Program-made: the position numbers and the translations under genes
The notes under the pieces: model-generated
The model's database searches: none
The model's input: only the letters and a program-made list of their open reading frames with translations
What the model was told of the DNA's origin: nothing
Shown here: positions 9,780 through 13,109 of the stretch, piece after piece
How positions within the stretch are numbered: the first letter of the stretch is position 1
Layout of the letters: the number at the start of each line of letters is the position of its first letter
Assembly (NCBI GenBank): GCA_016787225.1
Contig: JAEUUY010000022.1
Span: 62,001-126,000 of the forward strand
Source of the DNA: Chitinophagales bacterium
Lineage (GTDB): Bacteria > Bacteroidota > Bacteroidia > Chitinophagales > JADJOU01
Direction: 5' to 3'
DNA length: 64,000 nt

Positions 9780-11693
<1,914 letters not shown>

Positions 11694-11720
11694 ATTTCCC
11701 AGCGCATTTATAGGTTATTG

Positions 11721-11816
11721 GAGCGTATAAACAACAATTGTATTATTAATTTGAGCGTAAAATTAATAATATCATTTACAACTTGAGCGTAAAATTAATG
11801 ATACGATAAATAATTA
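11721..11816 (+). repeat. Three direct repeats with exact 32-bp period upstream of the ATPase gene
   Basis: The core GAGCGTA begins at 11721, 11753 and 11785, exactly 32 bp apart. The second and third units share GAGCGTAAAATTAAT and then diverge. An inverted TACGCT occurs at 11817, again 32 bp on, touching a TATATTTG box (11822-11829) just before the ATPase gene. The spacing equals about three helical turns, so it may be an operator array; a decayed tandem duplication is the alternative. The surrounding 162-bp gap holds no gene. Confidence 0.75.
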
Positions 11817-11855
11817 TACGCTATATTTGCCTCAAAATAAATCAAGCAATCTATA

Positions 11856-13109
11856 ATGAATAGAAAATCTAGATTAGAAGGCAAATTGGTAGAGGCTCTA
11901 TCTAGTTCGCCATTGACTAGAATCTTGGTGCTCACCGGTGCACGACAAGTAGGTAAAACTACACTGCTTCGGCATCTTTTTCCACATTATTCTTATATCA
12001 ATATGGACGAACCTCTACTGAGAAAAGAGGTAACAGCTATGTCATCGGCACAGTGGCTCGCAGCTTATGACCATGTCATAGTAGATGAAGTGCAAAAATG
12101 CCCAGAAGTTGTAGAAATGATCAAAGCTGCAAATGACATGGGTCATGAGCAACGCTATATTCTCACAGGGTCGAGCCAACTCATGCTCTTGAAGAATGTG
12201 AAAGAGAGCTTGGCTGGAAGATGTATTATTGAGGAACTATATCCCCTGACACTGCCTGAATTGATGACCACAAGCTGGGAAGATAAGGTTGCATATTCTC
12301 ATTTCCAACATATAATACTTGGTCAGAATATTCCGAATTTTATACCATTTCGATTTCAAAAAAACTTTTCGCCTATAATGGAAGTGTATGATTTCTACCT
12401 TCAATTTGGTGGCTATCCAGCACTTGTAGCTAAAGGATTGAGTGCAAATGACAAAAGAAAATGGCTTAAAAACTATATTAAGACCTATCTAGAAAGAGAT
12501 ATTCGAGATTTAGCTGATTTTAAAAATTTGGAACCGTTTACCTCACTGAAAAGAGCCACCGCCATATCTACAGGTCATTTGATTAATTATTCCTCACTGG
12601 CCCGGCAGGTGGGCGTTACACCGAGCACAGCACAGCGATTTCTACACTATTTGTCTATGAGCTACCAAGTATTGATATTGCAGCCTTGGCACAAAAACGA
12701 ACTCAAACGATTATCTAAAATGCCAAAAGTCCATTATTTGGATCCAGGCATACAGCGAGTTGTGGTAGGCAATGTGAATCCTCATTTGTCTGGTAGCGAA
12801 TTTGAATCTGCTATTGTAGCTGAAATGTACAAGCAGCTGCAATACTTGCAGTTGGATACCCATATCTATCATTTGAGAACGAACGATGGCAGAGAAGTGG
12901 ATGTGCTGATAGAAACACCGCAAGGTTATTATGCTTTTGAAATAAAAATGACCGCCAATTATAACCATACTGATAATCGACACTTGAGAAATTTAGATGA
13001 AATACTAGACAAACCGCTACTACATTCATTTGTCATTACACAAGATACTATTCCAAATCAAAAAGAAAAAAATATAACGGCCATTCATGCCGCTCAATTT
13101 CTCACTTAA
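11856..13109 (+). CDS. AAA_14 / DUF4143 family ATPase
   Basis: The 417-aa protein has a Walker A loop GARQVGKTTLLRHLF (about residues 28-42), a Walker B-like segment DHVIVDEVQKCPE, the sensor-like YILTGSSQLMLL, and a C-terminal DUF4143 domain with the nuclease-like core VDVLIETPQGYYAFEIK. This AAA_14-DUF4143 family is widespread in Bacteroidota and archaea, often patchily distributed; its cellular role is not established. It is out of place in a glycan cluster, has its own upstream repeat region, and ends 3 bp before the next glycosyltransferase gene, so it is probably co-transcribed with the two genes downstream. Horizontal insertion is plausible but not proven here. Confidence 0.88.
   Translation: MNRKSRLEGKLVEALSSSPLTRILVLTGARQVGKTTLLRHLFPHYSYINMDEPLLRKEVTAMSSAQWLAAYDHVIVDEVQKCPEVVEMIKAANDMGHEQRYILTGSSQLMLLKNVKESLAGRCIIEELYPLTLPELMTTSWEDKVAYSHFQHIILGQNIPNFIPFRFQKNFSPIMEVYDFYLQFGGYPALVAKGLSANDKRKWLKNYIKTYLERDIRDLADFKNLEPFTSLKRATAISTGHLINYSSLARQVGVTPSTAQRFLHYLSMSYQVLILQPWHKNELKRLSKMPKVHYLDPGIQRVVVGNVNPHLSGSEFESAIVAEMYKQLQYLQLDTHIYHLRTNDGREVDVLIETPQGYYAFEIKMTANYNHTDNRHLRNLDEILDKPLLHSFVITQDTIPNQKEKNITAIHAAQFLT

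Follow-up and report, generated by a model that had tools for sequence, protein, structure and literature searches.

Plasmid replication iterons are phased direct repeats, about two helical turns apart, that lie near the gene of the Rep initiator that binds them, and this gene is often autoregulated. Among regulators of defence islands, the passages cited here from the report on RptR (PMC12255303) describe a short row of direct repeats at the promoter, cooperative binding (Hill 3.4) and autorepression. The present analysis concerns a row of three GAGCGTA repeats in front of an AAA_14/DUF4143 ATPase gene in a 64,000-nucleotide stretch of DNA from a Chitinophagales bacterium (assembly GCA_016787225.1, contig JAEUUY010000022.1, positions 62,001 to 126,000 of the forward strand; this whole stretch is called the window). 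We consider it likely that this phased row serves the ATPase gene as its own operator, which would be bound cooperatively by the encoded ATPase-winged helix-PD-(D/E)XK protein and would leave the promoter repressed or self-limited.

The gene falls into the PADLOC entry PDC-S01. According to the portions of the sources cited here, PDC-S01 ranks fourth in frequency among the defence entries of prokaryotes, PDCs are unvalidated candidates (PMC12988326), and PDC-S01 is common in rumen genomes (PMC13356809). The passages seen of PMC12988326 describe no promoter array for PDC-S01, and the word "promoter" occurs 0 times in its main text. Our survey of open-licence papers on DUF4143, PDC-S01 and repeat arrays found no description of such arrays.

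Three phased repeats adjoin the promoter of the ATPase gene

The GAGCGTA copies start at 11721, 11753 and 11785 on the plus strand, at the equal 32-bp step claimed by the first-pass annotation of the window, and are flanked by an asparagine synthase gene (9780-11693) and the ATPase gene (11856-13109). GAGCGTA alone is not enriched in the window (4 occurrences against 3.0 expected), but no other 7-mer with at least three G/C has three copies evenly spaced by 15-60 bp anywhere in the 64 kb, and any such equal-step triplet was absent from all 60 dinucleotide shuffles; the signal is therefore the spacing and not the 7-mer itself. With a composition-aware three-copy score the array reaches 35.3 at period 32, whereas the maximum among 269 upstream regions of neighbour genes is 11.4 at the same period. 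The repeat unit is wider than the 7-mer, with partial conservation across 22 bp in each copy. At 10.5 bp per turn, 32 bp correspond to 3.05 helical turns, so that the copies, which had been proposed to face one side of the DNA at three turns, lie on nearly but not exactly one face.

A fourth, inverted element, TACGCT at 11817, had been counted as part of the series. It is present and adjoins the promoter box, sharing one base with the TATATTTG box, and has no counterpart at the equivalent position in five close relatives; for these two reasons it is probably incidental. The TATATTTG box itself matches TAnnTTTG, which we take to be the Bacteroidota -7 consensus.

Arrays of clustered regularly interspaced short palindromic repeats (CRISPR) have near-identical repeats of about 25-40 bp and unrelated spacers; the window array, with three copies in which about 7 bp are fully and 22 bp partly conserved, is not of this type. 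It is not an RptR-type operator either: such an operator has 9-bp direct repeats with TAGCTA, and the window core is GAGCGTA at 32 bp. A plasmid DNA similarity search with the intergenic stretch returned a single match, which was irrelevant.

Close relatives keep the motif and the step

A protein search in 99 genomes identified three strong relatives of the window gene, in G003, G005 and G001 (best-segment identities 59, 54 and 55%, respectively), and a genome scan added L105 from Candidatus Colimorpha and L106 from a Bacteroidales metagenome-assembled genome; a further locus, L104, is the same gene as L016. The proteins of these five close relatives are 45-58% identical to the window gene product. 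All five carry GGCGTAAA three times at exactly 32 bp, apart from the middle copy of L016, which reads GACGTAAA, so that three copies at this step are found in 6 of the 6 window-clade members. It is mainly the core that is conserved within the clade, and the spacers between the copies have diverged. Five of the six members have the start of the last core 33-37 bp upstream of TAnnTTTG; in L017 this distance is 23 bp. The entire array is inverted in L105, which indicates that it is orientation-independent.

The window, G003 and G001 genes occupy a common place between asnB and a glycosyltransferase gene, and vertical descent follows from this. In G003 two arrays stand at this one place. The older array, of the window type (GAGCGTATA, TAGCGTATA, GGCGTAAAA), precedes a truncated gene copy of which the C-terminal part alone is left, 81% identical to the window protein; the second array is of the GGCGTAAA type and is followed by the intact paralog (59%). 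The locus L015 (877-1337) is such a relict of a window-gene ortholog: its array and the C-terminal protein part are retained, and a paralog that also has an array follows immediately.

Searches with the exact letters gave a very different impression. Pairs of GAGCGTA at 32 bp occur in one of the 99 genomes, the window's own; pairs of GGCGTAA at this distance give four matches across 60 relatives, every one at an ortholog. Triple GCGTAA at 32 bp was found in 0 of 395 genomes of the phylum, and triple GGCGTAA in 0 IMG/VR contigs. Taken alone, such scans would mimic a refutation, because the motif letters change and the change is visible only upstream of orthologs. The genomes searched held no arrays elsewhere than at family genes.

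Phased arrays recur across the family

We then scored upstream regions for three equally spaced similar segments in two sets of family genes. Set A consists of AAA_14/DUF4143 genes in order-level relatives, with loci chosen by hand among the matches listed before their upstream regions were inspected; set B combines the best 80 of 546 confirmed genome-contig stretches from many phyla with all 35 viral-contig loci. The scored region was 260 bp upstream, to which the first 30 bp of the frame were added in set B, and upstream regions of neighbour genes served as controls. Set A regions shorter than 150 bp, set B regions shorter than 180 bp, regions with N, overlaps with a better call and duplicates were left out, which reduced set A from 94 matches to 88 and set B from 125 to 118. 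Fourteen set A controls that shared their upstream region with a family gene were removed, and the same exclusion was applied in set B. The combined count also omits the L015 fragment and L104.

Period 32 was detected upstream of 23 of 88 family genes in set A and in none of the 269 controls, and periods 22 and 23 add seven family genes and no controls. In set B the counts are 10 of 118 family genes against 1 of 355 controls at period 22, seven against none at period 23, three against two at period 32 and five against none at period 33. Each set thus shows the excess independently. Together, 55 of 204 family upstream regions have arrays at periods 22, 23, 32 or 33, compared with 4 of 624 controls (one-sided Fisher p 1.4e-31); all other periods together give one family gene and 14 controls. 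Arrays were detected in 8 of 29 IMG/VR loci taken alone and at 16 of 88 genome-contig loci. The controls with arrays include L113, L119 and L134 of set B, and the contig of L119 carries two family genes nearby. Among genes with no clear array the residual periodicity is weak, with z 3.3 both at lag 32 in set A and at lag 22 in set B, and controls reach similar z at other lags. The first-pass annotation had staked its reading on conservation of motif and spacing upstream of orthologs: both are kept in all five closest relatives found, and phased arrays recur upstream of AAA_14/DUF4143 genes in the wider family.

In 199 3' flanks, clear arrays at these steps were seen only at the L015 fragment, where the flank is the promoter of the next gene, and at L027, whose 3' array was listed at period 46, the double of its 23-bp step. 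L027 has a 23-bp ACCTTGAAAANTGAACACTATA array both 5' and 3' of one family gene (899-1031 and 2240-2370), with about six copies each, and this array was found nowhere else in the L027 genome. The units of L034, L080 and L098 carry TTTAGCTAAAT-like palindromes that resemble the reported RptR site, yet stand at 32-bp spacing.

Repeat letters follow the protein

Sixty-three arrays were first picked at periods 22, 23, 32 and 33, so that period counts among them are conditional on this choice; the periodograms of sets A and B are unconditional. For 62 array genes we compared repeat units by log-odds profiles. This replaced a first, poorly built similarity measure, which gave a weak correlation with protein identity (rho 0.181; the highest of 300 permutations was 0.193). 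With the log-odds comparison, motif similarity climbs with protein identity (rho 0.221, 0 of 500 permutations as high), and pairs with at least 40% identity have a motif score of 11.46 against a permuted mean of 8.29 (standard deviation 0.20; 0 of 2000 permutations as high). The two-turn or three-turn class agrees in 98.3% of 302 pairs with at least 35% identity (50% on average and at most 67% under permutation). In a FastTree tree of 201 proteins, three changes of period class suffice for the 62 array genes; the presence of arrays is clustered though patchy, with 29 changes against a shuffled mean of 53.1 (0 of 500).

Motif scores above 14 were found in only 1 of 20 same-genome paralog pairs, compared with 29 of 129 between-genome pairs with at least 40% identity. 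The window's genome itself has five strong family genes, four of which score above 20, with differing units and steps of 32, 23, 32 and 33 bp; one of its arrays, L101, is weak (21.9). A second clear array of this genome, with a TTACCCC-ACT-TGTGT unit at a 33-bp step, precedes a family gene other than the window gene (L103, 6795-6885, minus strand). At the level of sequence comparison, the motif letters follow the protein and not the host genome, which is the pattern expected of a self-binder.

The encoded protein is a predicted ATPase-nuclease

The window protein matches Pfam PF13173 (96.5 bits, cut-off 27) and PF13635 (108.9 bits, cut-off 28.1), and seven PADLOC PDC-S01 models match it (best E 4.4e-82, residues 10-410); no NCBIfam family was found for it. 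The predicted structure of the whole protein has a predicted local distance difference test (pLDDT) value of 93.6 and a predicted template modelling score (pTM) of 0.93. Walker A and B are intact, and G28, G33, K34, D77 and E78 are invariant in 52 sequences. In the model, the AAA+ domain and the winged helix resemble PABY2304 (2qen; Z 16.4, root mean square deviation (rmsd) 3.6) and SSO1545 (2fna; Z 15.7, rmsd 3.7), with 255 residues aligned in each case, and STAND and Orc/Cdc6 proteins are the next structural matches.

The C-terminal domain (model pLDDT 88.7) has an alpha-beta-beta-beta-alpha-beta fold. Its best structural matches are Can2 (8q41; Z 9.6, rmsd 4.1 over 119 residues) and McrC (6hz4; Z 8.4, rmsd 3.3 over 106), Cdn1 is also among them, and the Foldseek E-value is 2.8e-3 at best. 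The residues E317, D349, E362 and K364 are present in 16 of 16 sequences; among the 52 sequences E362 and K364 are invariant, and E317 and D349 are kept in at least 90%. As judged from the model, the domain is a PD-(D/E)XK fold whose catalytic set is intact, a predicted nuclease. The nuclease-like character that the first-pass annotation saw in the C-terminus is thus borne out; the DNA-binding role it proposed for this part is not supported, since the net charge is -5 in residues 301-417 and +6 in residues 226-300, a winged-helix region within the AAA+/STAND/Orc-like portion of the model. On this ground the winged helix is the better candidate for contact with DNA, and it is probably this domain that reads the array.

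Table 1. Positions of the array, the gene and its predicted domains in the window, and of one family gene from another genome
Feature	Position	Strand	Details
Array copy 1	11717..11738	+	core GAGCGTA 11721-11727
Array copy 2	11749..11770	+	core GAGCGTA 11753-11759
Array copy 3	11781..11802	+	core GAGCGTA 11785-11791; core start 37 bp 5' of TAnnTTTG box
Inverted TACGCT	11817..11822	-	at fourth 32-bp step; probably incidental
TATATTTG box	11822..11829	+	box start to ATG, 34 bp
AAA_14/DUF4143 ATPase gene	11856..13109	+	417 amino acids; PADLOC PDC-S01
AAA+ ATPase domain	11856..12275	+	residues 1-140; Walker A G28-T36, Walker B D77 E78
Winged-helix region	12531..12755	+	residues 226-300, net charge +6; likely DNA reader
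PD-(D/E)XK nuclease domain (predicted)	12756..13106	+	residues 301-417; E317, D349, E362-x-K364
TT_P0211 family gene	L227 19854-21074		T. thermophilus pTT27

In the neighbouring asparagine synthase reading frame, about six copies of a CTCTCAA heptamer were seen at window positions 10416-10456.

Discussion

The array adjoins the promoter of the presumed binder's own gene, and its site letters vary with the gene while the spacing stays constant; this pattern suggests a protein that binds at, and controls, the gene encoding it. The operator-like layout with a cooperative binder, perhaps the ATPase itself, that had been proposed for this locus is thus indirectly supported by conservation in orthologs and by motifs that follow the protein, although its inverted element was not conserved. 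The co-variation suggests self-recognition rather than a host regulator, with common descent contributing.

Several points weigh against a self-operator. Common descent with slow drift would also predict co-variation of motif and protein, and the permutations keep phylogeny. No protein domain is singled out by the motif correlation (rho 0.18-0.24 for all, the winged helix included). About three quarters of the family genes and entire clades have no detectable array, and the array is therefore not essential to the family. In wild-type T. thermophilus, which has Ago, the RNA of the family gene TT_P0211 rises 6.6-fold when the plasmid is present, according to the part of the study cited here (PMC4406477), and no phased array was seen upstream of this gene. 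Finally, activation may take the place of repression.

If the array is the gene's own operator, each copy would be bound by the gene product, with its AAA+ ATPase, winged-helix and PD-(D/E)XK parts, probably via the winged helix. Protomers on adjacent copies, lined up along nearly one DNA face, would contact each other, giving cooperative binding. The shape of the oligomer would set the spacing at two or three helical turns. The gene-proximal copy would cover or abut the -33 region, so that binding would hold the promoter off or self-limited, and release would lead to rapid induction of a potentially harmful ATPase-nuclease. We infer self-binding, cooperativity, repression and release on infection from sequence, and repression in particular from the position of the array at the promoter. 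An unlikely variant is that a STAND-like ATPase-nuclease oligomer is stored shut off on its private array and released onto invader DNA by a trigger or by competing DNA. With letters private to each array, as an assembly address would have them, many family copies could coexist in one cell.

A rival reading, in which the array is recognised by a different regulator of the host and the ATPase gene is merely its target, appears improbable. Repressors encoded by separate genes do act on direct repeats at defence islands, RptR being an example in the passages cited (PMC12255303), and the binder of the window array is a prediction from sequence; however, such a regulator predicts one motif for same-genome paralogs, and these differ more than related pairs from different genomes. 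In the genomes tested, moreover, an array was found at its own gene only. The array could also be the site recognised by a selfish module, homing-like or transposition-like, whose array and gene would travel as a unit and whose nuclease would act on the DNA of the array. We retain this explanation, quite improbable as it is, because the L027 array flanks its gene on both sides; the second array-plus-gene that stands after the remains of an older one in G003, and the period-32 array of L119, which lies 3' of the two other family genes on its contig, point in the same direction. Against it, clear 3' arrays at these steps are limited to two of the 199 flanks, an array without its gene was never found in 60 relatives, and the place common to three genomes argues for vertical descent.

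Some units are palindromic and could fold, as would suit an array that functions as RNA (a leader, guide or attenuator), but the window-clade array lies 5' of the probable start site, its units have a low palindrome score, and L105 carries the array in the opposite orientation, all of which makes this reading highly improbable. Slippage does generate tandem repeats, and certain units, such as those of L027, are near-identical. A functionless minisatellite or chance repeat is nevertheless scarcely credible, given periods confined to 22/23 and 32/33, a location 5' of one gene family, a core kept between diverged spacers at 45-58% protein identity, and no shuffle that matched the window array.

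PDC-S01 is very common yet unvalidated, and a private phased operator would offer a ready binding assay for each gene. If the self-operator holds, self-recognition and oligomer geometry would be predictable from the DNA letters, the regulation and trigger of the large PDC-S01 family would become directly testable, and the presence of many paralogs per genome with no cross-talk would be explained.

PDC-S01, a PADLOC candidate for single-gene defence, belongs to the same family and has the ATPase fused to a PD-(D/E)XK domain. The archaeal ATPases SSO1545 and PABY2304 and the STAND and Orc/Cdc6 proteins share the succession of AAA+ domain and winged helix with the modelled window protein, which adds the PD-(D/E)XK domain and for which DNA binding is predicted. 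Iterons resemble the window array as phased direct repeats near the gene of the presumed binder; they are spaced by about two turns, whereas the three-turn class is commonest in set A. As far as the cited passages go, RptR appears to be the nearest worked-out analogue found. Both have a few direct repeats in a short row at the promoter, and the window array would share cooperativity and autorepression. RptR, in contrast, is a small repressor encoded by a separate gene, and its repeats are 9 bp long; the arrays described here have steps of 22/23 or 32/33 bp, and their likely binder is the product of the adjoining ATPase-nuclease gene.
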